Part shown: in pieces, positions 16,325 to 43,093 of the stretch
Position numbering within the stretch: the stretch's first letter is position 1
Layout: each line of letters starts with the position of its first letter
Source: Streptomyces antimycoticus
GTDB lineage: Bacteria > Actinomycetota > Actinomycetes > Streptomycetales > Streptomycetaceae
Length of the DNA stretch: 64,000 nt
Direction of reading: 5' to 3'
NCBI RefSeq assembly: GCF_005405925.1
Contig: NZ_BJHV01000001.1
Span: 8,804,001 to 8,868,000 of the forward strand
Notes under the pieces: generated by a model
Databases searched by the model: none
Told to the model about the DNA's origin: nothing
What the model saw: the letters and a program-made list of their open reading frames with translations, nothing else
Program-made: the position numbers and the translations under genes

Positions 16325-16341
16325 TGAATTGGATTCGGTTT
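16325..16341. promoter_or_regulatory. Cluster operator copy A (TGAATTGGATTCGGTTT)
   Basis: This 17-mer recurs as an exact inverted copy at 21145-21161 upstream of the acyl-CoA dehydrogenase operon. It fits the consensus of at least six other sites in the cluster. It lies about 75 bp before the flavoprotein gene. Confidence 0.6.
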
Positions 16342-18671: not shown

Positions 18672-18738
18672 GGGCTCTCCTTCGTCTTGCGCGGCACCTT
18701 GGGCGGTAACTCGCGTGGCATCTGGCATGGCGTCTCGC

Positions 18739-18780
18739 GTGGCATCTCCGGCGTCAGCCGTGGCATCTCCGGTGTCAACG
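18739..18780. repeat. Two 21-bp direct repeats upstream of the SDR
   Basis: Units at 18739-18759 and 18760-18780 share GTGGCATCTCCGG then GTCA. They lie between the kinase stop and the SDR start and explain the repetitive leader of the extended reading frame. Confidence 0.6.
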
Positions 18781-18781
18781 G

Positions 18782-19810
18782 TCACGGCAGCAGCTCCAGC
18801 CCCGAGCGCAGCAGTGCGGGCACCGCGGAGCCGACCCGCTCGAATCCCGTTCCGACCGTCTGTCCCGCCGCGTAGCGGGCGTTGATGCCCTCAGCGATGA
18901 CGGCGAGCTTGAAACAGCCCAGCGCCTGGTAAAAGGGCAGGCCATCGATGTCCCGTCCGGACTTCGCGGCGTATCGCTCGGCCACCTCGCGGCCCGAGGG
19001 AAAGCCGGGGTTGGCCGTCGGGACGTGGCGCGCTCCGAGGACCGGTTCGCAGGTCCGGTCCCAGTACATGAGCAGCATCCCGAGGTCGGCGAGCGGATCG
19101 CCGAGCGTGGCCATCTCCCAGTCGAGGACGGCGGCGATCCGCCCGAAGTCGCCGGGTGCCAGGATGACGTTGTCCAGGCGGTAGTCGCCGTGCACGATGG
19201 CCGGGGCACCGCTCGCGGGCAGGGAGCGGGCCAGTCGGCCGTGCAGTTCGTCGAGGTCGGGCAGGCTCCGCGTGGCGACCTTGTCCCACTGCCCACGCCA
19301 CCGCCGCACCTGGCGCTCCAGATAGCCGTCGGGCCGGCCGAAGTCGCCGAGCCCGACGGTGGCGGCGTCCACCGAGTGCAGTGTGACCAGGGTGTCCACC
19401 AGCGCGTCAGCGGCGCGCCGCGCATCGTCGGGCGGGAGTGCGGCGGCCTCGTCGCCATCGCGCAGCACCGCGCCCTCCACGAAGTCGACGACGCAGAACG
19501 GTGCCCCGATCACCTCCGGGTCCGTGCACGACAGCACGGCCCGGGCGACCGGCACCGCGGTGTCGCCGAGCGCCGCGACGACGCGGTATTCGCGGTCCAT
19601 GTCGTGTGCGGTCGGCGTCAGCACCCCCAGTGGCGGGCGGCGCACCACCCACCGGTGTGCCCCGTCGGTCACCGCGTAGGTGAGATTGGAGCGCCCGCCC
19701 TGCAGCAGCGTGACCGTGAGCGGGCCCGCGCACTCGGGTACGTGGCGTTCGAAGTAGCGCTGCAACGCGGCCACGTCGACTCCGGCCACCGTCGTCCCAG
19801 AACTGGTCAC
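18782..19810 (-). CDS. APH-fold kinase (ACAD10/11- and LvaA-like), copy 1
   Basis: 342 aa from GTG 19810, overlapping the upstream acyl-CoA dehydrogenase stop (GTGA). Kinase signatures: the Brenner motif HGDYRLDNVI near residue 205 and metal-binding VLDWEMATLGDP near 225, plus WVVRRPPLG at the nucleotide lobe. The fold is that of aminoglycoside phosphotransferases. Coupling to an acyl-CoA dehydrogenase marks the metabolic branch represented by the human ACAD10/11 kinase domain and Pseudomonas LvaA, which phosphorylate 4-hydroxyacyl-CoA. Antibiotic resistance is unlikely from the context. Confidence 0.85.
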   Translation of the reverse strand: MTSSGTTVAGVDVAALQRYFERHVPECAGPLTVTLLQGGRSNLTYAVTDGAHRWVVRRPPLGVLTPTAHDMDREYRVVAALGDTAVPVARAVLSCTDPEVIGAPFCVVDFVEGAVLRDGDEAAALPPDDARRAADALVDTLVTLHSVDAATVGLGDFGRPDGYLERQVRRWRGQWDKVATRSLPDLDELHGRLARSLPASGAPAIVHGDYRLDNVILAPGDFGRIAAVLDWEMATLGDPLADLGMLLMYWDRTCEPVLGARHVPTANPGFPSGREVAERYAAKSGRDIDGLPFYQALGCFKLAVIAEGINARYAAGQTVGTGFERVGSAVPALLRSGLELLP

Positions 19811-21009
19811 AGGGTGCCCTGCCGCTCCCGCGCCGCCCGCACCGCGCGCTTGGCGATGGCCCAGCGATGGGTCTCGGAAGGGCCGTCGTAGATACGGAAC
19901 GGACGCACCTCGCGGTACAGCCGCGACAGCGGGGCGTCGCCCGAGATGCCGAGCGCACCGCATACCTGGACGGCCCGGTCGACCACCCGGTTCACCGCCT
20001 CGGAGACGTAGGTCTTGGCGATCGAGGTGTGCTGGGCGGCCGGGCGGCCCTGGTCCAGCTCCCAGCAGGCCCGCCACAGCACCGCCCGGCCGGTCTCGAT
20101 GTCGATCTCGGAGTCGGCCAGCATCTGCTGCACCATGCCCAGTTCGGCCAGCGGCTTGCCGAAGGCCGAACGGTCGGCAGCGCGCTCCAGGGCGATGTCC
20201 TGCGCCCGCCGGGCCACGCCGAGCCAGCGCATGCAGTGGGTCATGCGGGCGGGCCCGAGGCGTACCTGGGCATACGCGAAGCCCTGGTCCACCTCGCCCA
20301 GTACGGCATCGTCCGCGACCTCGCAGCCTTCGAAGGCGATTTCGCTGTGCCCGCCGAAGAGACCCTGGTCCAGGGTGTCGATATTCCGGACGATCTTCAT
20401 GCCGGGGTTGTCGGCGGGGATGAGAAACATCGTCGCGCCGCCGGCGTCGCCGGGGCCGCCGCTGGTGCGGGCCATGCAGATGGCGAAGGCCGCCCCGTCG
20501 GCGCCGCTGATGAACCACTTGCGGCCGTCGATCCGCCAGCCGCCGTCGATCTTCGTCGCGGTCGTGGTGAGCGCACGCGGGTCGGAGCCGGCGCCCGGCG
20601 CCGGTTCGGTCATCGCGAAGCACGAGCGCGCCTCACCGGCCGCCAGCGGGCGCAGATACCGCTCCTTCTGGTCCTCCGTGGCCACCACCTCGAGCAGATG
20701 CGTATTGCCCTCGTCGGGAGCCGCGCAGTTGAGCGCGAGGGGGCCGAGCAGCGAGTACCCGGCCGCTTCGAACACCACGGCCTGTCCGCACAGGTCCAGT
20801 CCGAGTCCGCCCCATTCGGCGCCGACGTGCGGGGCGAACACCCCCGCCTCGCGGGCCGCGTCCTGGAGCCGGCGGCGCAGCGGCTCCGGCCCGGCATGGA
20901 CGTTGCCGTCACACGCCTGCTCCTCGGGTATCACCACCTCCCGTACGAACTCGGTGGTGCGCCGCGCGATCCCGGCGACCCGTTCATCGATCTCGAACCC
21001 GATGGGCAC
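19807..21009 (-). CDS. Acyl-CoA dehydrogenase paired with APH kinase, copy 1
   Basis: 400 aa from GTG 21009 with GGGAG upstream. Signature [14 protein letters not shown] near residue 135, [14 protein letters not shown] in the middle domain, and the C-terminal flavin motif [22 protein letters not shown] followed by IYDGPSETH. The latter resembles the ADGPDEVH ending of ACAD10/11 enzymes. In Lva-type pathways this partner eliminates phosphate and isomerises the 4-phosphoacyl-CoA to the 3-hydroxyacyl-CoA; ordinary dehydrogenation is the alternative. First gene of the leftward operon, with cluster operator copy B upstream. Confidence 0.88.
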
Positions 21010-21409
21010 GTTGCACTCCCGAGCTTGTCTACTGCCTACCTGTACGGCGACACTTCGCGTCCTGGGCGCGCGACCGCGTACCCACGATGCGAAGCAGATC
21101 CAAAGCGCGGGCACCGGACTCGGTGCGTCCCGCTCCTTACGAGTAAACCGAATCCAATTCAGATCCTCAACCGGTCGGGCGTGTGCCGATGTGGCGACTT
21201 ACTCGCACCGCACTCCGCTGTCGACTGAGCCGCAGGTCGGACGCTGTATACGCGAAGCCTTTCCACCCCACACGCATGATCGCACTGACGGCCTCCGTCG
21301 CGCCCCCGGAGAAAACTCCCGTTCGATGGCTAGCTGTACTGAGTTCAGTTCTGTAGCGTCCCGGGCGTCGGCAAGGTACCGGACCTGCCGCGGGGAAGGG
21401 AGCCGGATC
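21010..21409. promoter_or_regulatory. 400-bp divergent control region (ACAD operon / MHS transporter)
   Basis: No convincing gene lies here. It holds two cluster operators: copy B (AAACCGAATCCAATTCA, 21145-21161), an exact inverted copy of site A, and copy C (TACTGAGTTCAGTTC, 21337-21351), each nearer one of the two divergent genes. Confidence 0.6.
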
Positions 21410-22729
21410 ATGAGAACCACACAGCAGCCCGCGCCGCCGGGGGAGGAGCCCGCGCCGCCGGAGGAGTCGGCGTCGTACGATCCACGTACGGTGCGCCGCG
21501 CGATGCTCGCCGGGAGCATCGGCACCCTGATCGAGTACTTCGATTTCAGCGTCTACGGCTATCTCGCCGTGGCCATCGCTCCGCAGTTCTTCCCGGGCGA
21601 CGATCCGGCGGCCTCGACGCTGGCGGCGCTCGCGGTGTTCGCCACGGGCCTCGTGGTGCGGCCGATCGGCGGTGTCTTCTTCGGATGGATCGGCGACCGC
21701 TGGGGGCGTCGCAAGGCGCTGGTCTCCTCGGTGCTGTGCATGGGGGTGGCCAGCAGCCTCACCGGACTGCTGCCGACCTACAGCCAGATCGGCGTGTTCG
21801 CCGCGGTGCTCCTGTTCATCACCCGGCTGGCGCAGGGCATCTCCTCGGGCGGCGAGTCGGTAGGCGCCTACACCTACATCTACGAGTCGGCGCCACCCGA
21901 GCGCAGGGCCTTCCTCGGCTCCGTCACGCCCATCGGGTCCAACCTCGGGTTCATGTTCGCGGCCTCGACGGCCGGAGCGATCTCCGCCCTCACCACCAAG
22001 GAACAGATGGGCGACTGGGGCTGGCGGCTGCCCTTCCTGATGGCCGTGCCGCTCACCCTCCTCTGCCTGTGGGCCCGGCTGCGGATCGAGGACACCCCGG
22101 AATTCAAGGAGGCCGCACAGCGCGCCGACATCCCCGCGGCTCCGATCCGAGAGGTCCTGGCCACTCACCGTACGGCGCTGCTGCAGTCCGTCGGACTGGC
22201 CATGGCACAGGGCGGCGCCATCTTCCTCGGGCTGACGTACATCGGCATCTACCTGACCACCAACCTGGGATACGACACCACGCTGGTGTACTGGCTGTCC
22301 GCGGGTGTCGTGCTCGTCACCGTGCTGCTCATGGTGCCGGCCGGCCGGCTCGCCGCCCGGTTCGGCTGCCGTCGCGTCCTGATGGGCGGGCTGCTGGGCT
22401 TCCTGGTGACCGCCTACCCCGCGATGCTGCTGATGGGCCAGGGCAGCCTGGCGCTGGCCGGTCTGGCGTATCTGCTCCTGATGCTGAGCAGTGCGTTCGT
22501 GCAGGTCCCGGCGGCGAGTCTGTGGCCGCATCTGTTCGAACGCCGGGTCCGCTACACCGGTATGGCGATCGGGTACAACGTCGGCACCGTCCTCGCGGGC
22601 GGTACGGCTCCGTACATCGCGGCCTTCCTGGTCGACCGGACCGGGAACCTGCTCTCCCCGGCGTTCTTCGTCATGCTGGTCTGCTTGATCGGCATCGGTT
22701 CCCTGCTCACCGTCCGCAAGGATGTGTAG
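21410..22729 (+). CDS. MHS-family MFS transporter of the catabolic cluster
   Basis: 439 aa from ATG 21410, with GGGAAGGGAGCC upstream. A proline/glutamate-rich N-terminal tail precedes SIGTLIEYFDFSVYGYLAV, typical of MHS symporters. The signature RPIGGVFFGWIGDRWGRRKAL is at about residues 85-105, and about twelve membrane helices follow. It presumably imports the acid degraded by the surrounding enzymes. Operator copy C, about 60 bp upstream, ties it to the cluster regulon. Confidence 0.9.
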   Translation: MRTTQQPAPPGEEPAPPEESASYDPRTVRRAMLAGSIGTLIEYFDFSVYGYLAVAIAPQFFPGDDPAASTLAALAVFATGLVVRPIGGVFFGWIGDRWGRRKALVSSVLCMGVASSLTGLLPTYSQIGVFAAVLLFITRLAQGISSGGESVGAYTYIYESAPPERRAFLGSVTPIGSNLGFMFAASTAGAISALTTKEQMGDWGWRLPFLMAVPLTLLCLWARLRIEDTPEFKEAAQRADIPAAPIREVLATHRTALLQSVGLAMAQGGAIFLGLTYIGIYLTTNLGYDTTLVYWLSAGVVLVTVLLMVPAGRLAARFGCRRVLMGGLLGFLVTAYPAMLLMGQGSLALAGLAYLLLMLSSAFVQVPAASLWPHLFERRVRYTGMAIGYNVGTVLAGGTAPYIAAFLVDRTGNLLSPAFFVMLVCLIGIGSLLTVRKDV

Positions 22730-22787
22730 CGAGTGTTCGGCCGTGGTGGCGGCAGGCGCCACGCACGGCCGCGGACTCGGCGCCGCT

Positions 22788-23528
22788 CTAATCCGCGGAG
22801 TGGGCGCCGTGGCCGATGGTCTGGCCGCCGTCGATGAGGAACTCCCCGCCCGTGGTGTAGGAGGCGTCGTCGCTCGCGAGGAAGAGCACCATGCGGGTGA
22901 CCTCCTCGGGCTCCCCGATGCGCCGCACCGGCTGATGGGCGAAGAGCGCGGGTGAGGCGGTCTCACCCATGGACGTACGGATGACACCCGGGTGGACGGA
23001 GTTCACCCGCACCCCGCTGCCCGCCATGTCCAATGCGGCGGCCTTGGTCATCCCGCGCACCCCCCACTTGCTCGCCACATAGCCGATGCCACCGGCGAAA
23101 CCCGTCATGCCGGCGGCCGAGGAGACGTTGACGACGGCCCCGTGGCCGCGGTCGCGCATGCCGGGGAGGACGGTGTGCATGCCGAGGAACGCGCCCACCA
23201 GATTGACGTCGATGATCCGGCGGAAGTGCTCGGGCGACTGCTGCTCCACATCGCCGTAGAGCATGATCCCCGCGTTGTTGACCAGGACGTCCACGGGGCC
23301 GAGGGTGTCCTCGACCGTGCGGACCACGGACCGCCACCGCGCTTCGTCGGTGACGTCGAGGTGGCAGTACCGCGTGCCGGGGAGTTCCCCGGCCAGGGCC
23401 TCCCCTTCGTCGTCCAGGACGTCACAGACGGCGACCCGGGCGCCCTCCGCGACCAGCCCCCGCACATGCGTGGCACCCATGCCCCGGGCACCGCCGGTGA
23501 CGATCGCTACTTTTCCGTCGAAGCGCAT
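22788..23528 (-). CDS. SDR, hydroxysteroid-dehydrogenase-like
   Basis: 246 aa. AIVTGGARGMGATHVRGL at the N-terminus, LVNNAGIMLYG, VVNVSSAAGMTG and catalytic YVASKWG are all present. The pattern TGGARGMG with a C-terminal GGEFLIDGG is common in the 3-alpha/20-beta-hydroxysteroid dehydrogenase subgroup, but that subgroup covers many alcohols. NAD(H)-dependent oxidation of a secondary alcohol in the pathway is likely. Convergent with the transporter gene; transcribed in the same direction as, and downstream of, the alcohol dehydrogenase at 23.7 kb. Confidence 0.88.
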   Translation of the reverse strand: MRFDGKVAIVTGGARGMGATHVRGLVAEGARVAVCDVLDDEGEALAGELPGTRYCHLDVTDEARWRSVVRTVEDTLGPVDVLVNNAGIMLYGDVEQQSPEHFRRIIDVNLVGAFLGMHTVLPGMRDRGHGAVVNVSSAAGMTGFAGGIGYVASKWGVRGMTKAAALDMAGSGVRVNSVHPGVIRTSMGETASPALFAHQPVRRIGEPEEVTRMVLFLASDDASYTTGGEFLIDGGQTIGHGAHSAD

Positions 23529-23580
23529 GCTGAACTTCCCTTCCGCGTCCGTGAGTTGCCGACATCTGTGAGTTCCCCGC

Positions 23581-23676
23581 GCCGATGAGCCCGCGCGCCG
23601 ATGAGCCCGCGCGCCGATGAGCCCGCGCGCCGATGAGTCCGCGCGCCGATGAGTCCGCGCGCCCTTAAGCCCCGCG
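23581..23676. repeat. 16-bp tandem repeat, five copies plus degenerate
   Basis: The unit GCCGATGAGCCCGCGC occurs five times without spacing (23581-23660), the last two with GAGTCC in place of GAGCCC, followed by a decayed sixth copy. It fills the gap between the zinc alcohol dehydrogenase and the SDR on the minus strand. Confidence 0.85.
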
Positions 23677-23731
23677 CGTCCCTAAGCCCCCGCGTCCATG
23701 AGCCGGAGCCATCAGTCCACCGCGAAGGTGC

Positions 23732-24772
23732 TCAGTCCGGTACGAGCACGGTCCGGCCCCGCACCCGACCCCGGCGGAGCCGGTCGATCGCCTCCGCGGC
23801 GGCGGACAGCGGGAAGCGCTCCGTCTCGACGTGGAGCGCCCCCGAACGTGCCAGTGTGACGACCGCGGCCAGTTCGTGGCGCGTTCCCCAGAAGGGCAGT
23901 GAGAGCCGGAAGCCGGGCGGGAGGACGCCCGGCTTGGACACCGTCAGGCTGCCGCCTCCGCTTCCCACGACGGCGAGTTCGCCGCCGGGGCGCAGGACGC
24001 TGGTCGCGAGTTCCAGGGTCTGTGGGGCGCCGACGAAGTCGAATACGGCGTCCGCTCCCACGCCACCGCTGCGCGCCCTCAGGACGCGGGCGGTGTCCGG
24101 TCGTATCAGGGTGCTGAAGTCCGCGCCGGAGCGGTCCGCGAGAGCCAGGGCGTCTTCCCGGACATCCACCGCCAGCACACGGCTCGCGGTGGTCGCGTGG
24201 AGGGCCTGGACGGCCAGGTGGCCGAGCCCGCCGACACCGATGACGACGGCGGTGGTGCCCTCGCCGAGGGCGTGCCGGAGCCCGGCCACGGCGTGGTAGG
24301 ACGTCAGGCCCGCGTCGGAGAGCGGGGCGGCCTGGTCGGCCGGCAGGTCGCCGATCGGCACCAGATGGCGGGCGGAGGGGACGAGCACGTACTCGGCCAT
24401 TCCGCCGTCCCGGCCCAGTCCGGCCCCGTGCCAGGCGAGGGTGTCCCGCCGGTCGCAGTAGTTGTCGGAGCCCGCGGCGCACCGGGCGCAGGAGCCGCAG
24501 CCCCACGGCCCGTAGAGCACCACGCGGTCACCTGCGCTCACCCCGTCGGCGGTCGGCCCCAGGGCCGTGACCTGCCCGGCGACCTCGTGGCCGAGGGTGA
24601 ACGGCAGCCGGTAGGGGAGCGCGCCCGGAGCACCGTCGATGACGTGCAGGTCGGAGCGGCACAGACCGGCGGCTTCGACCCGCACCAGCACCTCGGTGCC
24701 GTGGGGGACGGGCCGCTCGACCTCTGCCGATGCCGGAGCCTGGCCCCAGGTAGTCAGCCGCAGTGCCCTCAT
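23732..24772 (-). CDS. Zinc-dependent alcohol dehydrogenase (MDR)
   Basis: 346 aa from ATG 24772 (a GTG at 24778 is equally possible). Catalytic zinc ligands are in AAGLCRSDLHVIDG and LGHEVAGQV. The structural zinc site is complete with four cysteines in CGSCARCAAGSDNYC. The Rossmann motif is VIGVGGLGHLAVQA. It oxidises a primary or secondary alcohol with NAD. Operator copy D lies between it and the divergent SDR, so it belongs to the cluster regulon. Confidence 0.9.
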   Translation of the reverse strand: MRALRLTTWGQAPASAEVERPVPHGTEVLVRVEAAGLCRSDLHVIDGAPGALPYRLPFTLGHEVAGQVTALGPTADGVSAGDRVVLYGPWGCGSCARCAAGSDNYCDRRDTLAWHGAGLGRDGGMAEYVLVPSARHLVPIGDLPADQAAPLSDAGLTSYHAVAGLRHALGEGTTAVVIGVGGLGHLAVQALHATTASRVLAVDVREDALALADRSGADFSTLIRPDTARVLRARSGGVGADAVFDFVGAPQTLELATSVLRPGGELAVVGSGGGSLTVSKPGVLPPGFRLSLPFWGTRHELAAVVTLARSGALHVETERFPLSAAAEAIDRLRRGRVRGRTVLVPD

Positions 24773-24822
24773 CTTCACCGTCCCGGGTCTTGTCAGCTCT
24801 GCGGCTGCCACGGTAACAGAGG

Positions 24823-24839
24823 TGAAGTCGGTTCAATAG
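24823..24839. promoter_or_regulatory. Cluster operator copy D (TGAAGTCGGTTCAATAG)
   Basis: Weaker match to the TGAATTGAGTTCAATTC consensus (GTTCAAT half exact). It lies between the divergent alcohol dehydrogenase and SDR genes. Confidence 0.45.
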
Positions 24840-24867
24840 GTGGCTGGGGCAACGGAAGGGGATCGGT

Positions 24868-25686
24868 GTGACGAGCGAAGACCTGACGCACGAAGAGGTC
24901 CGAGCGGGGAGGTTCGCCGACAGGGTCGCGATGGTGACGGGAGCCGCCTCGGGCATGGGCGCGGCGGTCGCCCGGCAACTGGCCGCGGAAGGCGCGCGGG
25001 CCGTCGTCCTGGCGGATGTGAACGGCGACGGCGCGGCGGCGGTCGCCGAGGAACTGCCCGCCGCCGTGGCGGTCGCACTCGATGTCACGGACGCGACGGG
25101 TGTGGACAGCGCCTTCCAGGAGGTACTGCGCCGGTACGGGCGGCTCGACGTCCTGGTGCACGCGGCGGGGGTCGACGATCCCGAGGCGAAGCAACGCATC
25201 GCGGACGCGGCCGTCGAAGGGCGGCCGGTCGAGCTGACCGACTCCCTCGACGACGCCTCCTGGCAGCGGGTCCTGCGCGTGAACCTGGACGGAACCTTCC
25301 ATGTGCTGCGCGCCGCGGTGCGGGTCATGCGGCCCCGCGAGGCAGGGGCGATCGTGGTGATCGGATCGTCGTCGGCCTTCGACGCACCCGTCGGCTACCC
25401 CCATTACGCCGCCTCCAAGGCGGGTGTGCACGCCCTGGCCCAAGCCGTGGCCAAGGAGGTCATCGCGTCCGGGATCCGCGTGAACCTGGTGGCGCCGGGG
25501 CCGACGGACACGGGGATGGCGGCCCGCACCCCCGAGGCGCTGCGGTCGGCCTTCGCCGACCCCCGGGTGCGCCCGTACGCGACGCCCGAGGAGATATCCG
25601 AGATCGCCCTCTTCCTCGCGAGCGATGCCGCGGCGAACCTCGTCGGCGCGGTGCTGCTCGCCAACGGCGGCCGGTTCACCGCCTGA
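24868..25686 (+). CDS. Short-chain dehydrogenase/reductase
   Basis: 272 aa from GTG 24868 with GGAAGGGG upstream. AMVTGAASGMGAAVA, LVHAAGVDD in the NNAG position, VVIGSSSAFDAP and catalytic YAASKAG are visible, ending VGAVLLANGGRF. An insertion of about 20 residues after LVHAAGVDDPEAKQR distinguishes it from the other SDRs here and may shape the substrate pocket. It is followed by a strong hairpin, so it is probably transcribed alone, from a promoter overlapping operator copy D. Confidence 0.87.
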   Translation: MTSEDLTHEEVRAGRFADRVAMVTGAASGMGAAVARQLAAEGARAVVLADVNGDGAAAVAEELPAAVAVALDVTDATGVDSAFQEVLRRYGRLDVLVHAAGVDDPEAKQRIADAAVEGRPVELTDSLDDASWQRVLRVNLDGTFHVLRAAVRVMRPREAGAIVVIGSSSAFDAPVGYPHYAASKAGVHALAQAVAKEVIASGIRVNLVAPGPTDTGMAARTPEALRSAFADPRVRPYATPEEISEIALFLASDAAANLVGAVLLANGGRFTA

Positions 25687-25694
25687 GCGGATTC

Positions 25695-25740
25695 GGGTCG
25701 GCCCCCTGATCCTGGCCGGCCCCGTTCCGGGGGCCGACCC
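25695..25740 (+). terminator. Hairpin terminator after SDR
   Basis: GGGTCGGCCCCC (25695-25706) pairs perfectly with GGGGGCCGACCC (25729-25740) around a 22-nt loop, just after the SDR stop. Confidence 0.7.
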
Positions 25741-25807
25741 GATCCGGGTCCGCCCCGATCCTGGCGCCGGATGGTCTTGCCTGCCTGGAGTCCCATGCCT
25801 ACGGTCA

Positions 25808-25824
25808 TGAATTGAGTTCAATTC
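25808..25824. promoter_or_regulatory. Cluster operator copy E, best palindrome
   Basis: TGAATTGAGTTCAATTC contains GAATTGA-GT-TCAATTC, perfect 7-bp arms around 2 bp. It lies about 40 bp before the acyl-CoA dehydrogenase start and is the best representative of the shared motif. Confidence 0.7.
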
Positions 25825-25864
25825 TTGCGCTCCTCGCCCGCCGTACGAGCACGATGGAGATCCC

Positions 25865-27046
25865 ATGCACCGTCGCCACCCCGAGATCGACCCCCAGCTA
25901 CTGTCCGAAACGGACGAACAGCGACAATTGCGTACCGTCCTGCGCGACCTCTACGCCGAGGCGAGTGGCGTCGAGGAGGTGCGCAAGCATCTGGCCACCC
26001 CACGCGGATACGACGAAGCGCTCTGGGCTCGCCTCGCGGGCGAGATCGGCGTCCACGGCCTGGCCATTCCGGAGGAGTACGGCGGGTCGGGCTTCACCTT
26101 CGCCGAACTGGCCGTGGTCCTGGAGGAATCCGGGCGTGCCCTCTACTGCGCGCCGCTGCTCCCCACGGTGGTCCTGGCCGCAAACGCCCTCGTGCTCAGC
26201 GGCGACCGTACGGCATGTGAGCGCTACCTGCCCCGGATCGCCGACGGCACGCTCACCGCCACCGTCGCCGGGTTCGGCCCCGATGGCCCCGGTCGGCCCG
26301 GTGGGTCCGATCAGTCCCGCGAGCCCGCCGTCACCGCGGAACAGGGGAGCGACGGCTGGGTGCTGCGCGGCCGGGCGGACTTCGTGCTCGACGGGGCCGG
26401 TGCGGATCTGCTCCTGGTGCGGGCCGGAACCCCCGCCGGGCCTCGGATCTTCGCCTGTGAGCCCGCCCCCGACACCTGTCGGCGGACTCCGCGCCGCGTC
26501 CTGGACGAGACGCGGCGCCAGGCGCTGGTGGAGTTCTTGGGTGCCCCGGCCACTGCCGTGGGCGCGGCGGAGGAGGCCGAGGGCACAGTTTCGGCCACGC
26601 TGGACACCGGGCGGGCCGCGCTGGCGGCCGAACAGGTAGGCGGCAGCGGGCACGCGCTGGACGCCACGGTCGCGTTCGTGGCCCAGCGCCGCCAGTTCGG
26701 CCGCCCCATCGGGTCCTTCCAGGCCGTCAAGCACCGGCTGGCCGATGTGCTGGTGGCGCTGGAGGCGGCGCGCTCGGGGTCCGCGTACGCGACCGCCTGC
26801 GCCGCCATCGCCTCGCCGCAGCTTCCGGTGGCCGCCTGCGCCGCCGCCGTGGTCTGCTCCGAGACCTTCCGCCTGGCGACGGCCGAGTACGTCCAGCTGC
26901 ATGGCGGGATCGGCTTCACCTGGGAGCACCCGGCTCATCTGTACGTACGCCGGGCGCGCGCCGCCGAGGTGCTGTTCGGCACGGCGGACCAGCACCGGAC
27001 CCGGCTCGCCGGGCTCGTCGGCCTCGCCAGCCGCCCCGCTGCCTGA
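25865..27046 (+). CDS. Acyl-CoA dehydrogenase
   Basis: 393 aa from ATG 25865. The N-terminal helical domain includes HGLAIPEEYGGSGFTFAE; the central signature is degenerate (no clear TEP motif). The C-terminal part shows QRRQFGRPIGSFQAVKH and YVQLHGGIGFTWEHPAHLY. Such FadE-type subunits with a weak central domain often form heterotetramers with a second subunit, as in actinobacterial steroid catabolism. The ACADs at 29.6 or 31.8 kb would be candidate partners. FAD-linked alpha,beta-desaturation of an acyl-CoA is expected, with electrons passed to ETF. Confidence 0.88.
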   Translation: MHRRHPEIDPQLLSETDEQRQLRTVLRDLYAEASGVEEVRKHLATPRGYDEALWARLAGEIGVHGLAIPEEYGGSGFTFAELAVVLEESGRALYCAPLLPTVVLAANALVLSGDRTACERYLPRIADGTLTATVAGFGPDGPGRPGGSDQSREPAVTAEQGSDGWVLRGRADFVLDGAGADLLLVRAGTPAGPRIFACEPAPDTCRRTPRRVLDETRRQALVEFLGAPATAVGAAEEAEGTVSATLDTGRAALAAEQVGGSGHALDATVAFVAQRRQFGRPIGSFQAVKHRLADVLVALEAARSGSAYATACAAIASPQLPVAACAAAVVCSETFRLATAEYVQLHGGIGFTWEHPAHLYVRRARAAEVLFGTADQHRTRLAGLVGLASRPAA

Positions 27047-27075
27047 ACTCGATTAGGTATGTCTCGATCAAGGGG

Positions 27076-27127
27076 TTGACACCGTGCGGCTCTGGAATCA
27101 AAGTTGTAGTGAATTCAGTTCAGTTTC
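27076..27127 (+). promoter_or_regulatory. Promoter with overlapping cluster operator copy G
   Basis: TTGACA at 27076-27081 is followed after 17 bp by CAAAGT, a fair -35/-10 pair. TGAATTCAGTTCAGTTTC at 27110-27127 lies just downstream and matches the cluster operator. It would control the enoyl-CoA hydratase and following genes. Confidence 0.5.
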
Positions 27128-27140
27128 GAAGGGGTGAGGG

Positions 27141-27929
27141 ATGACAACGGAAGAAGAGATCCAGTTCGAGCGTGACGGCCACGTCGCCCGTGTGTGGCTC
27201 AACCGTCCGTGGAAGAAGAACTGCGTCACCGTGCCGATCCTGGACCGGCTCGACGAGATCATCACCGAGGTGGACGAGGACCCCGAGCTGCGGGTCCTGG
27301 TGGTGCGCGGCCGTGGTGGCACGTTCTGCTCGGGGTTCGACCTCGACAGCCTGAAGGCCGAGTACGTCGGCAAGTCGAACGCGATCGACGTCGCGGTGAA
27401 GTCCGCGAAGGTGTGCGACCGCCTGTACTCGATGAAGACCCCCTCGGTCGCGGTCCTGGAGGGCCATGTCACCGCAGGCGGCTTCGAGATCATGATCTCC
27501 TGCGACTTCGCGATCTCCGCCGACGACGCGAAGATCGGCGACTTCCACATCCGCCGCGCGCTGTTCGGCGGGGCCGGTCCGATCTACCGGGTGCCGCGCA
27601 TGATCGGCATCCGTAAGACCAAGGAGCTGATGCTCACCGGCAAGCTCCTCTCCGGCGTCGAGGCCGCCGAGTTCGGCCTGATCAACAAGTCGGCCCCGGC
27701 CGAAGAGCTGGACGCGACGGTCGAGGAGTTCATCAGCCACCTCGCCGACAAGAGCCCCTTCACCATGTGGCTCACGAAGATGACGATCGACCGCAGCCTG
27801 GACGCCGACACCCAGTCGCTGATGGTGATGGAGCACCTCGCCGTGGGTGTGGCGCTCAACTCCGAGGACGCGAACGAGGGCGTGTCGGCGTTCCTGGAGA
27901 AGCGCGAACCCAAGTGGCAGGGGCGCTGA
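27141..27929 (+). CDS. Enoyl-CoA hydratase/isomerase (crotonase)
   Basis: 262 aa from ATG 27141. Crotonase oxyanion motifs are GTFCSGFDLDSL and GHVTAGGFEIMISCDF. The region of the second catalytic glutamate reads RRALFGGAGPIYRVPRMIG, without the usual Glu, so the reaction may not be simple hydration; hydrolase or isomerase chemistry is possible. Preceded by its own promoter and operator, it heads a long operon of tightly spaced genes (hydratase, DUF35, thiolase-like and onward). Confidence 0.87.
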   Translation: MTTEEEIQFERDGHVARVWLNRPWKKNCVTVPILDRLDEIITEVDEDPELRVLVVRGRGGTFCSGFDLDSLKAEYVGKSNAIDVAVKSAKVCDRLYSMKTPSVAVLEGHVTAGGFEIMISCDFAISADDAKIGDFHIRRALFGGAGPIYRVPRMIGIRKTKELMLTGKLLSGVEAAEFGLINKSAPAEELDATVEEFISHLADKSPFTMWLTKMTIDRSLDADTQSLMVMEHLAVGVALNSEDANEGVSAFLEKREPKWQGR

Positions 27930-27934
27930 TCCGG

Positions 27935-28318
27935 ATGACCACGGATCCGCGGAGCCCCGCCGCCGGCGGGCTCCAGGGCGCACGCTGCTCCGGCTGCTCG
28001 GTGACGGTGTACCCCGCGGACGACACGTGCCCGCGCTGCGGAGGGCCGGCCGCTCCGGCGGCCCTCCAGGGCACGGGCACGCTGTGGACCTGGACGGTGC
28101 AGCGGTACGCCCCCAAGTCGCCGCCCTACCAGGCCCCGCCCGGAGGCTTCGAGCCGTTCGCGCTCGGCTATGTCGAGTTGGCGGAGGGCGTGCGGGTGGC
28201 CGCCGTCCTCGACGTCGACGACCTCGACGCCGTCCGCATCGGCATGCCGCTCTCCGTGACCGCCGGTCCCGGGGTGCCCCGGGCCAGGCCCACACCCGTG
28301 AGCGAGGAGGGCTCGTGA
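27935..28318 (+). CDS. Zinc-ribbon/OB-fold DUF35 protein, thiolase partner
   Basis: 127 aa from ATG 27935, five bases after the hydratase stop. The N-terminal rubredoxin-like zinc ribbon has CSGCSVTVYPADDTCPRCG (four cysteines). The OB-fold follows (GTLWTWTVQRYAPKSPPYQ, FALGYVELAEGVRVAAVL). DUF35 proteins form complexes with SCP2-thiolase-like proteins, for example ChsH2-DUF35 with the Ltp2 aldolase in cholesterol side-chain loss. The GTGA overlap with the next thiolase-like gene supports a dedicated complex. Confidence 0.88.
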   Translation: MTTDPRSPAAGGLQGARCSGCSVTVYPADDTCPRCGGPAAPAALQGTGTLWTWTVQRYAPKSPPYQAPPGGFEPFALGYVELAEGVRVAAVLDVDDLDAVRIGMPLSVTAGPGVPRARPTPVSEEGS

Positions 28319-29460
28319 GCACCGATGTGCTGATCTGTGGCGCGGGGCGCACCCCGTTCGGCCGGTCGGAGGCGACCGGCCGGCAGCTCGCCGTCACCGC
28401 CGTCAACGCCGCGCTGACGGACGCCGGGATCCCGTGGTCGCGGGTGCGGGCCGCGTTCGGCGGCAGCGACAGCGCGGGCCTCGCGGACACCCTGGTGGCC
28501 CAACTCGGCCTGACCGGACTGCCGTTCGTCAACGTCAAGAACGGCTGCGCCACCGGTGGCAGCGCGCTGGTCTCCGCCGTGAACGCGATCCGCTCCGGCA
28601 TGGCGGACGTCGTCCTCGCCGTCGGCTTCGACAAACACCCGCGCGGCGCCTTCGACCCCAGGCCCGAGGACTGGGGCCTGGGTGCGGAGTACGGCAGCGA
28701 CGGGCTGATGGTGACCACCCAGTTCTTCGGCATGAAGATCCAGCGCTATATGCACGACCACGGGATCACCTCGCGGACCCTGGCCCTGGTCGCCGAGAAG
28801 GCGTACCGCAACGGCGGCCTGACCCCCGAGGCATGGCGTCGCACACCGGTGTCCGCCGAGGAGGTCCTGGAATCCGGCATGGTCAGCGATCCGCTGACCC
28901 GCTTCATGTTCTGCTCCCCGGGAGCGGGCGCGGCGGCGCTGGTCCTCTGCTCGCCCGAGGCCGCCGGCGCGATGGACGGCACACCGGTCACCCTGCGCTC
29001 GGCGGCCGTACGCACCCGGCGCTTCGGCTCGTTCGAGGTGTTCAGCCCGTGGATTCCCGGAGGCGCGCTGACCAGCGTCAGCCGTGACGCCTCGGCCGCC
29101 GCCTTCGAGGAGGCGGGGCTCGGCCCGGGTGATGTCGACGTCGCTCAGCTGCAGGACACCGAGAGCGGTGCCGAGGTCATGCACATGGCCGAGTGCGGAT
29201 TCTGCGAGGACGGCGAGCAGGAGCGGTTGATCGCCTCCGGCGCCACCGCGATCGACGGGACGCTGCCGGTCAACACCGACGGCGGCTGCATCGCCAACGG
29301 CGAACCCATCGGCGCCTCGGGACTGCGCCAGGTCTACGAGGTCGTCCAGCAGTTGCGCGGCCGGGCCGGTGAGCGCCAGGTCCCGGACCGTCCCAGGATC
29401 GGCTTCACCCATGTGTACGGCGCCCCAGGCGTGAGCGCCTGCACGGTCCTGTCCCGTTGA
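28315..29460 (+). CDS. SCP2-thiolase-like (Ltp-type) protein
   Basis: 381 aa from GTG 28315. The nucleophilic cysteine region is FVNVKNGCATGGSALVSA. The usual C-terminal GHPxGATG motif reads NGEPIGASGLRQ, so the catalytic His is replaced by Glu. The last conserved segment is HVYGAPGVSACTVLSR. This mix suggests a specialised member: a thiolase with altered base, or a retro-aldolase like Ltp2. It is coupled to the DUF35 gene. It could release acetyl-CoA, propionyl-CoA or a ketone from the degradation intermediate. Confidence 0.87.
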   Translation: MSTDVLICGAGRTPFGRSEATGRQLAVTAVNAALTDAGIPWSRVRAAFGGSDSAGLADTLVAQLGLTGLPFVNVKNGCATGGSALVSAVNAIRSGMADVVLAVGFDKHPRGAFDPRPEDWGLGAEYGSDGLMVTTQFFGMKIQRYMHDHGITSRTLALVAEKAYRNGGLTPEAWRRTPVSAEEVLESGMVSDPLTRFMFCSPGAGAAALVLCSPEAAGAMDGTPVTLRSAAVRTRRFGSFEVFSPWIPGGALTSVSRDASAAAFEEAGLGPGDVDVAQLQDTESGAEVMHMAECGFCEDGEQERLIASGATAIDGTLPVNTDGGCIANGEPIGASGLRQVYEVVQQLRGRAGERQVPDRPRIGFTHVYGAPGVSACTVLSR

Positions 29461-29565
29461 AAGTCCCGCCGAATATCCCGTCGCCGAATGACTCGCCGAA
29501 TACTCCGCGCGCTGGCCCGCGGAATGTCCGGCTGAACGGCTCCCCGATCGGAGGTGGAGGAAGAG

Positions 29566-30804
29566 ATGAGCGGTATCCCGGAACCCGATGAGTTCCGCGC
29601 CGAGGCCCGGACGTGGCTCGCCGGTGTGGCCCGGCCCCGCGCCGCCGACGGGGAGTGGGGCAGCGGCTCCGACTCCGTCGCCGTGTTCGAGAACTGGACC
29701 GAGGAGCAGGAGCGCGAGCACACCGCCCGCGTCCAGGAGTGGGAACGCACCCGCTACGACCAGGGCTGGTCCGCGCTCAATTGGCCGCAGGAGTACGGCG
29801 GCCGAGATCTGCCCGCGTACTACGAGCAGCTCTACCGTGGCGAGGAGGCGGCCTTCGACGTACCGCACCGCCCCGAGATCTTCCCCGTGACCCAAGCGCT
29901 CGTCGCCCCCGCGATCGGCCTGTGGGGCACCGAGGAACAGAAGCGGCGCTGGCTCGTGCCCATGCTGCGCACCGACGAACTGGCCTGCCAGCTGTTCTCG
30001 GAGACCGAGGCCGGATCCGACCTCGCCGCGGTGCGCACCCGGGCGGTGCGCGAGGAGGGGGCCACCGCCCGCTCGAGCGAAGCCGAGAGCGGGGGAGGCT
30101 GGGTGCTGACCGGACACAAGGTGTGGACCTCCGGGGCTCGCGTGGCGACCTGGGGCGTGGCGGTGTGCCGCACCGATCCGGACGTCCGTAAGCACGCCGG
30201 CATCACCGTCTTCCTGGTGCGCATGGACGCGCCGGGCGTCACCGTACGGCCCATCCGGCAGATGACCGGTGGCACCAGCTTCAACGAGGTCTACCTGGAC
30301 GGGGTGCGGGTGCCCGACACCGACCGGCTCGGGCCGGTCGGCGAGGGGTGGCGGGTCACGCTCAGCGTGCTGGCCGCCGAACGGCTCGACTCCGGCAGTC
30401 TCGGCCTGGACAACGCCGACCGGGCGCTGGACCTGGCCGGAAACCTGTCGCGCCCCCTCACCGGTAGCGAACAGCAGCGGGCCGCCGACCTCCACCTGCG
30501 CACCCTCGTCCAGCGGCTCATGGGACTGCGGGTGACCGCCGCCCTCGTCGCCGGGCGCGAACCGGGCGCGGAGGCGTCGGTCGGCAAGCTGTACGCCACC
30601 GAGACCATGCGGCGCACCAGCGACCTGGTGTCCGAGCTGCTGGGGTCGAGCCTCGTGGCGGACACGGGGGAGTGGGGCACCTACGCCTGGACGGAACACC
30701 TGCTGGGCGCCCCCGGCTACAGCATCGCGGGCGGCACCGACGAGATCCAGCGCACCATCCTCGCCGAGCGCGTACTCGGCCTGCCCAAGGAGCCCGTCCG
30801 ATGA
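29566..30804 (+). CDS. Acyl-CoA dehydrogenase
   Basis: 412 aa from ATG 29566 after GGAGGAAGAG. The signature LFSETEAGSDLAAVRT replaces the common TEP with TEA. HKVWTSGARVATWGVAV and the C-terminal GAPGYSIAGGTDEIQRTILA are typical of FadE enzymes. Full-length, with good FAD and ETF contacts. Its stop overlaps the start of the APH-kinase gene (ATGA), making a dehydrogenase-kinase-dehydrogenase series. It should perform alpha,beta-dehydrogenation of an acyl-CoA. Confidence 0.88.
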   Translation: MSGIPEPDEFRAEARTWLAGVARPRAADGEWGSGSDSVAVFENWTEEQEREHTARVQEWERTRYDQGWSALNWPQEYGGRDLPAYYEQLYRGEEAAFDVPHRPEIFPVTQALVAPAIGLWGTEEQKRRWLVPMLRTDELACQLFSETEAGSDLAAVRTRAVREEGATARSSEAESGGGWVLTGHKVWTSGARVATWGVAVCRTDPDVRKHAGITVFLVRMDAPGVTVRPIRQMTGGTSFNEVYLDGVRVPDTDRLGPVGEGWRVTLSVLAAERLDSGSLGLDNADRALDLAGNLSRPLTGSEQQRAADLHLRTLVQRLMGLRVTAALVAGREPGAEASVGKLYATETMRRTSDLVSELLGSSLVADTGEWGTYAWTEHLLGAPGYSIAGGTDEIQRTILAERVLGLPKEPVR

Positions 30805-31775
30805 GCATGGCCACCGAGGTGCCGGAGCTGGCCGCCCGGGTCCGCGACCGGCTCGCCCGCCACCACCCGGGAGCGCCGGTCGGCGAGTTGACGGTGCTGC
30901 CGGGCGGCCACTCGGGGCTGACGTACGAGGTCGCGGCCGGGGATGCCCGGTACGTCGTCAAGGCGGTGCCCCCGGGCCAGCGGCCCGTCGGGCGCAACGA
31001 CGTCCTGCGCCAGGCACGAGTGCTCGGCGCGCTGGCCGGATCCACCGTGCCGGTCCCGGGCGTCGTGGCCGTCGACGAGACCCAACCCGCCTGGTTCGCC
31101 ATGGACTTCGCGGCCGGGGAGGCCGTCGAGCCGGTATTGGACGACCACGAGGTGGACCCCGCGACGTCCCGCGCCCGGATGCTGGAGATCGCCTCCGTAC
31201 TGCGCCGACTGCACGGCACCGATGTGGACACGCCCGGGCTCGACGCGCCCGCGCCGCTGGACGCCGCCGGCGAGCTGGCGCGCTGGAGCCGCACCCTGCG
31301 TGCCGTTCCCACCGAACTGCGGCCCGGCGGCGAGGAGTTGCTGGCGCGTCTCGCCGACGACGTACCCCGCGGCCTCCCGCCGGTGCTGCTGCACGGGGAC
31401 TTCCGGCTCGGCAATGTGCTGTGCGTGGGCGAGCGGGCGGTGGCCGTCGTCGACTGGGAGATCTGGAGCGTCGGCGACCCGCGCATCGACCTGGGCTGGT
31501 TCCTGCTCTTCGCCGACCACCGCAACTTCCCCCAACTGGGACACGCCGTGCCCGGACTGCCCGGCGAGGCCGAACTGCTGGACACCTACCGCGACGGGCG
31601 GCCCGCGCTGCCCGCGATGGACTGGTTCCGGGCACTCGGCCGCATGAAGATGGCCGCGATCATGGGCCACAACCTCCGCCGGCACCGCGAGGGCAAGCAC
31701 CACGACCCGGACCAGGAACGCCTGCCGCCCACCATCGCCGCGATGATCCGCACCGCCCGCGACATCCTCGGCTGA
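30801..31775 (+). CDS. APH-fold kinase (ACAD10/11- and LvaA-like), copy 2
   Basis: 324 aa from ATG 30801. Kinase motifs: LTVLPGGHSGLTYEV near the nucleotide loop, YVVKAVPPG with the lysine, catalytic LLHGDFRLGNVL near residue 200 and AVVDWEIWSVGDP near 215. It lies between two acyl-CoA dehydrogenase genes, overlapping the first and 37 bp before the second, which is ACAD10/11-like. The context points to phosphorylation of a hydroxyacyl-CoA rather than drug resistance. It shares little beyond core motifs with copy 1, so the two are not a recent duplication. Confidence 0.86.
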   Translation: MSMATEVPELAARVRDRLARHHPGAPVGELTVLPGGHSGLTYEVAAGDARYVVKAVPPGQRPVGRNDVLRQARVLGALAGSTVPVPGVVAVDETQPAWFAMDFAAGEAVEPVLDDHEVDPATSRARMLEIASVLRRLHGTDVDTPGLDAPAPLDAAGELARWSRTLRAVPTELRPGGEELLARLADDVPRGLPPVLLHGDFRLGNVLCVGERAVAVVDWEIWSVGDPRIDLGWFLLFADHRNFPQLGHAVPGLPGEAELLDTYRDGRPALPAMDWFRALGRMKMAAIMGHNLRRHREGKHHDPDQERLPPTIAAMIRTARDILG

Positions 31776-31812
31776 TCCGGCACCGGTACCCCCCCACCGA
31801 ACAGGAGCAATC

Positions 31813-33045
31813 GTGGATTTCGGATACTCGCCACGGGCGAGTGAACTCCAGGACCGCATGCGGTCGTTCATGGACGAACACGTCTTCCCCGCAGAAGCGA
31901 CGTACGACCGGCAGCTGGCCGAGGGCGACGACCCGCACGCCCTGCCGCCGGTGATGGCCGAGCTGAAGGAGAAGGCCCGCGCCGAGGGCCTGTGGAACCT
32001 CTTCATGGCGCACGGCGACTGGGGCGCGGGGCTCAGCAACCTCGAATACGCGCCGCTCGCCGAGCTGGCGGGCCGCTCCATCATCGGCCCCGAGGTGTTC
32101 AACTGCTCGGCGCCCGACACCGGCAACATGGAGCTGCTCGCCCTGTACGCCACCCCCGAACAACAGGAACGCTGGCTGCGGCCGCTGCTCGACGCTCGGA
32201 TCCGCTCATGCTTCGCCATGACCGAGCCGGAGGTGGCGAGCTCCGACGCCCGCAACATCCGCACCCGCATCACCCGCGACGGCGACAGCTACGTCGTCAA
32301 CGGCCGCAAGTGGTACACCTCCGGGATCCTCGACCCCGACTGCAAGCTGATCATCCTGATGGGCAAGACCGACCCGGACGCGCCCACCTATCGGCAGCAG
32401 TCCATGCTGCTCGTCCCCCGGGACACCCCGGGCGTCACCGTCCTGCGCGACCTGCCGATGTTCGGCTACACCGACCGGCTCGGACACGGCGACGTGCTCT
32501 TCGAGAACGTCCGCGTCCCGGCGGAGAACATCCTCGGAGGGGAGGGCGAGGGCTTCGCGCTCGCCCAGGGACGGCTCGGTCCGGGGCGGATGCACTACGC
32601 GATGCGCGCCGTGGGTTTCGCCGAGCGCGCCCTGCGGCTGATGTGCGAGCGCGTCACCGAACGCACCGCCTTCGGCGGGCGGCTCGCCGACCAGGGAGTG
32701 GTCCGGGAGTGGATCGCCCGCAGCCGCATCGAGATCGAGCAGCTGCGTCTCCTCGTCCTCAAGTCGGCCTGGCTGATGGACACCGTGGGCAACGCCGCCG
32801 CCCGTATGGAGGTCGCCGCCATCAAGGTGGCGGCGCTGGAGGTCGCCCACAAGGTGGTCGACCGGGCGGTGCAGGCACACGGCGCGGCGGGGGTCAGCGA
32901 CGACACCGTACTGGCCCGGCTGTACGCCATCACCCGGGCGCTGCAGATCGCCGACGGTCCCGACGAGGTCCATCTGCGGACGGTGGCCCGCCAGGAACTC
33001 GCGCCATACAAGAAGAAGACCGACACGGAGACGGGGGCGGCGTGA
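31813..33045 (+). CDS. ACAD10/11-like acyl-CoA dehydrogenase
   Basis: 410 aa from GTG 31813 with AGGAGC upstream. FAMTEPEVASSDARNI near residue 135 and the C-terminal AHGAAGVSDDTVLARLYAIT with RALQIADGPDEVHLRTVA closely follow the ACAD10/11 pattern. These enzymes, with their kinase domain, convert 4-hydroxyacyl-CoAs through 4-phosphoacyl-CoAs to 3-hydroxy or 2-enoyl-CoAs. In mammals kinase and dehydrogenase are fused; here they are adjacent genes. Overlaps the following SDR start (GTGA). Confidence 0.9.
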   Translation: MDFGYSPRASELQDRMRSFMDEHVFPAEATYDRQLAEGDDPHALPPVMAELKEKARAEGLWNLFMAHGDWGAGLSNLEYAPLAELAGRSIIGPEVFNCSAPDTGNMELLALYATPEQQERWLRPLLDARIRSCFAMTEPEVASSDARNIRTRITRDGDSYVVNGRKWYTSGILDPDCKLIILMGKTDPDAPTYRQQSMLLVPRDTPGVTVLRDLPMFGYTDRLGHGDVLFENVRVPAENILGGEGEGFALAQGRLGPGRMHYAMRAVGFAERALRLMCERVTERTAFGGRLADQGVVREWIARSRIEIEQLRLLVLKSAWLMDTVGNAAARMEVAAIKVAALEVAHKVVDRAVQAHGAAGVSDDTVLARLYAITRALQIADGPDEVHLRTVARQELAPYKKKTDTETGAA

Positions 33046-33818
33046 GCGCCAACAGCCTCGACGGCAAGGTGGCCGTCATCACCGGTGGTTCCCGTGGCAT
33101 CGGCCTCGGCATCGCCACCGCCTACCGGGCGGCCGGCGCACATGTGGTGATCGCGGCCCGTAAACCGGCCGGACTCGCCGAGGCCCGCGAGGAGTTGTCG
33201 CGCGTCAGGGGCGACGGCGATGTGCATACGGTGGTGGCGAACGCGGGTGAACCCGAGCAGGCCGAGCGGTGCGTCGAGGAGACCATGGCCCGCTTCGGCC
33301 GCCTCGACATCCTCGTCAACAACGCGGCGACCAACCCGTACCACGGCGATCTGCTCGACCTGGACCTGCCGCGCGCGGAGAAGACCGTCCGCGTCAACCA
33401 GTACGGCATGATCGCCTGGACCCGGTGCGCCTGGCGAATGTGGATGGCCGAACACGGGGGAGCGGTGGTCAACATCGCCTCCGTCGGCGGGCTCATCGTC
33501 GACCCGCACATCGGCTACTACAACGCCACCAAGGCCGCCATGCTCCATATGACCCGGCAGCTCGCCTACGAACTGGGGCCGCACGCGCGCGTCAACGCCA
33601 TCGCCCCCGGGCTGATCAAGACCGAGCTGGCGCGGGCGGTGTGGGAGGTCCGCGAACCGATCCTCACCGCCAAGCTGCCGCTGCGGCGCCTCGGCACCGT
33701 GGAGGACGTGGCCCACGCCGCGCTGTTCCTGGCCTCCGACGCCTCCGCCTGGATGACCGGCCAGACCCTGGTGCTCGACGGTGGCGCGACCGCCCTGCCG
33801 ATCGGGGTGGAGGGATGA
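33042..33818 (+). CDS. Short-chain dehydrogenase/reductase
   Basis: 258 aa from GTG 33042, overlapping the ACAD stop. AVITGGSRGIGLGIATAY, LVNNAATNPYHG (NNAA in place of NNAG), VNIASVGGLIVDP and catalytic YYNATKAAM are visible, ending GQTLVLDGG. It is immediately followed by another SDR, with an ATGA overlap. The pair could interconvert the 4-keto/4-hydroxy and 3-hydroxy/3-keto stages of the proposed pathway; which does which cannot be told. Confidence 0.88.
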   Translation: MSANSLDGKVAVITGGSRGIGLGIATAYRAAGAHVVIAARKPAGLAEAREELSRVRGDGDVHTVVANAGEPEQAERCVEETMARFGRLDILVNNAATNPYHGDLLDLDLPRAEKTVRVNQYGMIAWTRCAWRMWMAEHGGAVVNIASVGGLIVDPHIGYYNATKAAMLHMTRQLAYELGPHARVNAIAPGLIKTELARAVWEVREPILTAKLPLRRLGTVEDVAHAALFLASDASAWMTGQTLVLDGGATALPIGVEG

Positions 33819-37387: not shown

Positions 37388-37406
37388 TGAATTGAACTGA
37401 ACTCAG
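37388..37406. promoter_or_regulatory. Cluster operator copy I (TGAATTGAACTGAACTCAG)
   Basis: Strong match to the shared motif, about 75 bp before the first SnoaL-like gene. It probably controls the 37.5-41.3 kb operon. Confidence 0.65.
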
Positions 37407-37478
37407 GTTGATCCGGGGGTCGTCGCAACGGCTCCGGGTCCCCGAGAGCGCTCGGCCACCCATCGAAAGGGCGCAGGC

Positions 37479-43006: not shown

Positions 43007-43093
43007 GGCCGCCTCGCGGGTCAGAAGTTCATCTGATCCCTTTCCCCGCCCCCATATCTTTCGCATTTCGCATGTCGCAGGAGAGCGATTCCC

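Follow-up and report, generated by a model that had tools for sequence, protein, structure and literature searches.

The window analysed here, a stretch of 64,000 nucleotides (contig NZ_BJHV01000001.1, positions 8,804,001 to 8,868,000) that is part of the 11.17 Mb genome of the soil bacterium Streptomyces antimycoticus, contains a catabolic gene cluster extending from about 16.3 to 41.3 kb, in which two pairs of genes each encode a kinase of the APH fold and an acyl-CoA dehydrogenase (ACAD). The first pair lies on the reverse strand and comprises K1 (18782..19810; Pfam APH, 191.2 bits) and A1 (19807..21009, with a GTG start at 21009; searches were run with 19807-21003, which lacks the first two residues). 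The second pair, on the forward strand, comprises K2 (30801..31775; Pfam APH, 109.5 bits) and A2 (31813..33045). The original prediction, made from the letters of the DNA alone, had correctly recognized both kinase genes and had each of them overlapping an ACAD gene. This holds for K1 and A1, which share a GTGA (19807-19810); K2, however, overlaps by an ATGA (30801-30804) not A2, whose start is separated from it by 37 bases, but the preceding gene, ACADa (29554..30804, forward strand). The latter codes for a steroid-type alpha ACAD detected with Pfam, with Tcur3483 as its best PDB match (118.4 bits); it lacks the ACAD11 pocket residues and is not ACAD10/11-like. The carboxy-terminal endings that had drawn attention to these genes are borne out by the translations: A2 has FAMTEPEVASSD along with ADGPDEVH, and A1 has the related YDGPSETH.

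Animal ACAD10 and ACAD11 strip the hydroxyl group from fatty acids, according to reports dated 2024 and 2025 (PMC12440821, PMC11342911), and Rashan et al. report that replacement of R626, H634 or R637 by Ala or Leu is the most disruptive to the ACAD step (PMC12440821). In an alignment numbered after mouse ACAD11, A1 keeps R626, H634, C635, M636, R637 and D753, that is, every tested residue of the ACAD11 pocket, and the catalytic-Glu position is occupied by Asp, as in all 11 A1-type rows. Its best PDB match is ACAD11 at 201.8 bits versus 182.1 bits for the best ordinary ACAD, a margin smaller than that of A2, and in the ACAD tree it falls in a group of seven rows (support 90) neighbouring the ACAD11 clade, within a wider ACAD11-like set of 72 rows (support 96). 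K1 matches the PDB entries 9o56 (243 bits) and 3dxp (205 bits) and the ACAD11 kinase (201 bits), and together with the former two belongs to the ACAD11 kinase clade (32 rows, SH-like approximate likelihood ratio support 99); neither the ACAD nor the kinase tree contains LvaA or LvaC of Pseudomonas putida. K1 also shares with all 37 rows of its class (class I) R176, a modelled contact of CoA, and an Arg-Glu pair, as well as the catalytic Asp and Asn (D220, N225). These features suggest that pair 1 is of the standard type, with a predicted activity on 4-hydroxyacyl-CoA. A third kinase-ACAD pair with the same HCMR motif is found elsewhere in the genome (kinase match C1:2638031-2638687, ACAD C1:2638968-2640176), and pairs 1 and 2 are thus additional to a standard one.

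A2 is closer to ACAD11 by score: it matches ACAD11 at 441 bits and a same-type protein of Mycobacterium abscessus (4hr3) at 437.5 bits, no other ACAD in the PDB exceeding 139.7 bits, and it lies inside the clade holding mouse ACAD11 (42 rows, support 99). A2 and all 45 A2-type rows (35 distinct sequences) retain R626, R637 and the catalytic Asp, and throughout these rows the phosphate-binding His is replaced by Tyr (Tyr262 in A2) and the Cys by Ala, giving YAMR in the place of HCMR. The same motif occurs in all of the nearest 120 proteins among the matches listed, the nearest of which come from Streptomyces, including the S. violaceusniger group. K2 falls outside the ACAD11 kinase clade, in a separate clade (70 rows, support 95), whose class (class II) has Lys and Gln, in strand beta3 and helix alphaC of K2, in place of the Arg and Glu of class I. 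It has a Gly at the position of R176, which in 95 of the 96 rows of class II is taken by Ala, Gly, Asp, Glu or Ser (the residue of the remaining row is not listed), and it retains D220 and N225, as do all 96. The nearest folds to K2 are 3dxp, 25-hydroxysteroid kinase and Rv3168; homoserine kinase, choline kinases and drug phosphotransferases follow at lower ranks, rank alone not defining function. Judged from its sequences, pair 2 is a conserved actinobacterial variant with another kinase class and a changed phosphate pocket. The Tyr in place of the phosphate-binding His, together with the different kinase class, implies that the substrate of pair 2 is probably a differently shaped hydroxyacyl-CoA, such as a branched, tertiary or ring-derived one.

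The original prediction had regarded the two pairs as instances of a single ACAD10/11 or Lva-type logic. This stands insofar as both ACADs hold most of the active-site signature, K1 groups with the ACAD11 kinase and the pairs are linked in other actinobacteria (see below). They are not equivalent, however, as pair 2 combines a kinase of another clade with an altered phosphate pocket; in the phylogenetic comparison with ACAD11, K1 and A2 enter the respective clades, K2 stays outside and A1 is placed in a neighbouring group. The core of the idea accordingly has good support for pair 1; for pair 2, a distinct conserved variant, it is probable.

The variant pocket and the variant kinase class tend to occur side by side. 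An ACAD11-type ACAD is found within 3.5 kb of the kinase in 102 of 132 rows, which include re-fetched copies, the other 30 standing outside the pairing. Near class I kinases the ACAD has HCMR or HCER in 24 rows and HAMR in two, and near class II kinases it has YAMR in 44, HAMR in 30 and HVMR in one; a single Thermus kinase of weak class is paired with HCMR. Where a YAMR ACAD lies within this 3.5 kb limit, the kinase is of K2's class in all 44 rows; a class I kinase, L075, is found at a greater distance from such a gene. As the loci of the two classes came from different queries, these counts are descriptive. A test for co-change of kinase class and ACAD pocket on 50 rows, from which a Thermus locus with an A1-type ACAD beside a kinase weak to both classes (L162) was left out, gave three independent contrasts on well-supported branches (four on all branches), so that no significance was attainable. 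The Tyr of YAMR arose once on the tree; with so few independent events the association of class and pocket is a correlation only. In many loci of Mycobacterium, Nocardia and Streptomyces (L076-L117), class II kinases are found close to HAMR ACADs, with different genes around them.

K2 and A2 are embedded in a forward-strand gene array that includes ACADb (25865..27046), a beta-like ACAD with Tcur3481 as its best PDB match and no match to the Pfam middle domain, and ECH1 (27141..27929), an enoyl-CoA hydratase (Pfam ECH_1) whose best NCBIfam model, EchA19, scores 190 bits, under the cut-off of 400. These are followed by a DUF35 protein with the OB-fold of the ChsH2 C-terminal domain (27935..28318, Pfam OB_ChsH2_C; the query, 27926-28318, begins nine bases before the first ATG), by the thiolase-like protein THIOLl (28315..29460, recognized through Pfam Thiolase_C_1 and alignments) and by ACADa. 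Downstream of A2, Pfam matches identify SDR4 (33042..33818) and SDR5 (33815..34594) of the short-chain dehydrogenase/reductase (SDR) family, the enoyl-CoA hydratase/isomerase ECH2 (34579..35382), a thiolase (35412..36560, Thiolase_N and Thiolase_C) and the regulator TetR1 (36651..37274), which is found in most operon loci. We surveyed 79 loci in named genomes found through K2, drawn from the best 80 of 576 relatives. The order DUF35-THIOLl-ACADa-K2-A2 on one strand is present in 25 of them, which belong to several actinobacterial families and span Streptomyces, Lentzea, Nonomuraea, Rhodococcus, Nocardia, Williamsia, Aeromicrobium, Dietzia, Nocardioides and Allosalinactinospora. Five further loci (L064, L065, L066, L070 and L073), from Pseudonocardia, Saccharopolyspora and Actinomycetospora, have the operon in rearranged form, with K2 retained at 55-58% identity and an ACAD with HAMR (38-42% identical to A2) in the place of A2; the comparison indicates that this Pseudonocardia-type operon is a case of non-orthologous replacement of A2. 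The remaining 49 loci hold more distant kinases. Two Rhodococcus plasmids carry the operon along with SDR, alcohol dehydrogenase, CoA ligase, TetR, EthD and metallo-beta-lactamase (MBL) fold genes. Among the entries listed in literature searches, which covered titles and the starts of abstracts of open-licence papers, there was no description of the K2-A2 operon.

Pair 1 recurs in the company of this operon. K1 overlaps SDR1 (17901..18785, reverse strand, Pfam adh_short_C2), and among seven Streptomyces relatives two (G055, G096) share the window's placement of the block K1-A1-SDR1, three (G140, G011, G079) have the block on the opposite flank of the operon, and the other two (G128, G022) have SDR1 and no K1-A1. 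In Nocardioides pocheonensis (L087) K1-A1 is situated inside the operon, between ACADb and ECH1. Searches of 29 further genomes with the K2-type operon, five of them with the rearranged form (L046 was left out), recovered a relative of A1 of at least 58% identity in 19 and none in 10; in 10 of the 19, including members of Lentzea, Allosalinactinospora, Rhodococcus and Nocardioides, it shares a contig with A2 at a distance of no more than 20 kb. Across 150 Streptomyces genomes, including that of the window, A1 is present in six of the eight with the operon versus eight of the 142 without it; upon exclusion of the window genome the former figure becomes five of seven, neither being corrected for kinship.

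The operon also has the makings of a carbon-carbon cleavage step. Classical thiolases use one Cys and two His residues in catalysis. THIOLl, for which the SCP2 thiolase and BbsB are the top-scoring matches, keeps the nucleophilic Cys (C78) and has Gln280 and Glu330 at the two His positions, a pattern seen in 41 of 41 rows (re-fetched copies included). Owing to the replacement of both His residues THIOLl is unlikely to be a classical thiolase, and together with its DUF35 partner it may constitute a retro-aldolase or retro-Claisen variant.

Like ACAD10 and ACAD11, the system described here joins a kinase to an ACAD with a catalytic Asp and an Arg pocket, A2 and K1 even falling in the respective ACAD11 clades; unlike them, it has the two activities in separate genes, and pair 2 has YAMR for HCMR and a kinase of another clade. 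The lva operon of P. putida, the source of LvaA and LvaC, reportedly likewise encodes its kinase and ACAD in distinct genes and joins them with LvaB, an SDR and a CoA ligase; kinases, ACADs, SDRs and a CoA ligase are present in our cluster too. That operon has a single pair, whereas the present cluster has two, in addition to the alpha and beta ACADs, the DUF35 protein and the thiolase-like protein. Actinobacterial steroid side-chain operons typically code for alpha and beta ACADs, ChsH2/DUF35, Ltp2 and a hydratase of the MaoC type. The matches of ACADa and ACADb to Tcur3483 and Tcur3481, that of the DUF35 protein to the ChsH2 C-terminal domain, and the thiolase-like partner are reminiscent of these operons; the crotonase-type hydratase, the proximity of THIOLl to the SCP2 thiolase and BbsB, and the added kinase-ACAD pairs set the cluster apart. 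The 25-hydroxysteroid kinase of Sterolibacterium denitrificans (PDB 9fsg, 9ft5) is about 19% identical and acts on a steroid tertiary alcohol rather than a CoA ester, with no lyase known in that paper (PMC8449060).

Building on the gene identities, residues, clades, operon order and linkage documented above, we propose, with a probability of roughly 0.7, that both pairs follow the route of ACAD10/11 and LvaA/LvaC, in which phosphorylation precedes the elimination of phosphate, and that they act on two hydroxyacyl-CoA intermediates arising from a single substrate of branched or ring-derived structure; we infer the activities, the reaction order and the substrate from these gene products. In such a pathway the CoA ligase (38689..40194, forward strand, Pfam AMP-binding) would activate the acid, and SDR steps or the zinc-type alcohol dehydrogenase (23732..24811, reverse strand, identified with Pfam) would set the hydroxyl. 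K1 or K2 would then move a phosphate from ATP onto the hydroxyl of the hydroxyacyl-CoA, and A1 or A2, using an Asp base and transient reduction of FAD, would expel it to yield an enoyl-CoA for beta-oxidation, the chain being shortened by the hydratases, SDRs, ACADa/ACADb and thiolases. The operon of pair 2 would contribute CoA activation, dehydrogenation by the alpha and beta ACADs, hydration and cleavage by the DUF35 and thiolase-like proteins, with pair 1 handling another intermediate of the same substrate. APH-fold kinases acting ahead of phosphate loss have precedents in ACAD10/11 and LvaA (PMC11342911) and in 25-hydroxysteroid kinase (PMC8449060). A simple gamma-lactone, one of the substrates originally suggested, appears less apt, since an operon with alpha and beta ACADs, DUF35 and a thiolase-like protein would better fit a branched or ring-derived acid.

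The joint action of the pairs on one substrate has to be weighed against the view that they serve different substrates, with K1-A1 an independent module that is a neighbour by chance. The relocation of K1-A1 across the operon in three Streptomyces, where it lacks a matching operator, its absence at the identity threshold from 10 of 29 operon genomes and the eight operon-less Streptomyces with A1 are in keeping with such independence; nevertheless, the proximity of A1 to A2 in 10 of the 29 genomes, across several genera, and the insertion of K1-A1 in the gap between ACADb and ECH1 in N. pocheonensis make us regard it as rather unlikely. It is less likely still that only pair 1 carries out phosphorylation-elimination, A2 having drifted, for instance to ordinary dehydrogenation, and K2 phosphorylating something else in the pathway. 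The invariant loss of the His and Cys of the phosphate site in A2-type rows and the placement of K2, devoid of R176, outside the ACAD11 kinase clade would accord with this, but A2-type rows without exception preserve both Arg residues and the catalytic Asp, the kinases within 3.5 kb of YAMR ACADs are uniformly of K2's class, and the five operons without A2 hold another ACAD11-type enzyme in its stead. The kinases share their fold and Pfam family with drug-resistance phosphotransferases; such a grouping, which the original prediction had named as a refuting outcome, is nonetheless very improbable for either of them and was rejected on the NCBIfam scores and the nearest folds of K2: with the APH/Mph models of NCBIfam, whose cut-offs range from 205 to 725 bits, the scores amount to 19 to 40 bits, neither kinase passing one, and the genes of both are coupled to ACAD genes.

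Within our proposal of two phosphorylation-elimination pairs, K2-A2 might, tentatively, be the prototype of a second system of this kind, an actinobacterial one, which would act within a side-chain-cleaving operon on a hydroxyacyl-CoA out of reach of the standard system, for instance one with a tertiary or ring hydroxyl. Pair 2 could thereby extend hydroxyl removal to new substrates, and, if the proposal is correct, it would furnish a function for a widely conserved actinobacterial operon and for genes now just called phosphotransferase family protein. A natural lineage with Tyr for an essential phosphate-binding His and a different kinase class also makes the role of the pocket directly testable.

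With regard to regulation, an operator-like dyad, GAATTGAGTTCAATTC, is found upstream of ACADb (25809..25824). A copy with one mismatch (21336..21351) lies between an MFS gene and A1, closer to the MFS start (21410), and two overlapping dyads with two mismatches each are seen both upstream of ECH1 (27106..27126) and between TetR1 and SnoaL1 (37389..37409). The pattern GAAYTGANNTCARTTC, which was derived from the window itself, has 11 sites with at most three mismatches there versus 1.83 expected, a number reached in none of 100 shuffles; genome-wide it has 19 sites with at most two mismatches versus six for the reversed control pattern, the window accounting for six of the 19, or four of 17 with overlaps merged (binomial p 2.4e-6). 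At least one site with at most two mismatches is present in 42 of the 43 relatives' loci scanned. In only 3 of 18 cases, namely the window and two of its relatives, does a dyad stand upstream of A1, and in the relatives with a relocated A1 no matching operator sites occur upstream of that gene. Given the origin of the pattern, this narrow distribution and the proximity to the MFS gene, we do not regard the dyad as establishing shared regulation of the two pairs, with A1 as a member of the regulon.

Among the other genes of the cluster, the MBL-fold hydrolase named in the original prediction is indeed present (40191..41252, forward strand, Pfam Lactamase_B; query 40194-41249). Genes for the beta and alpha subunits of electron-transfer flavoprotein (42218-44056) lie beyond the cluster and, used as queries, matched none of the 79 operon loci at the cut-offs applied. 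The best match of SDR2 (22788-23528), an SDR, is ChcB1, the trans-4-hydroxycyclohexanecarboxylate dehydrogenase (257 bits, below the cut-off of 400), a hint at cyclic acids; upstream of it is a GC-rich near-palindrome (23593-23662) with four repeats at 16-base steps. Finally, the 17 bases at 21145..21161 (reverse strand), upstream of A1, recur exactly at 16325-16341, ahead of a FAD-binding_2 oxidoreductase gene; the 11.17 Mb genome has no further exact copy of this 17-mer.

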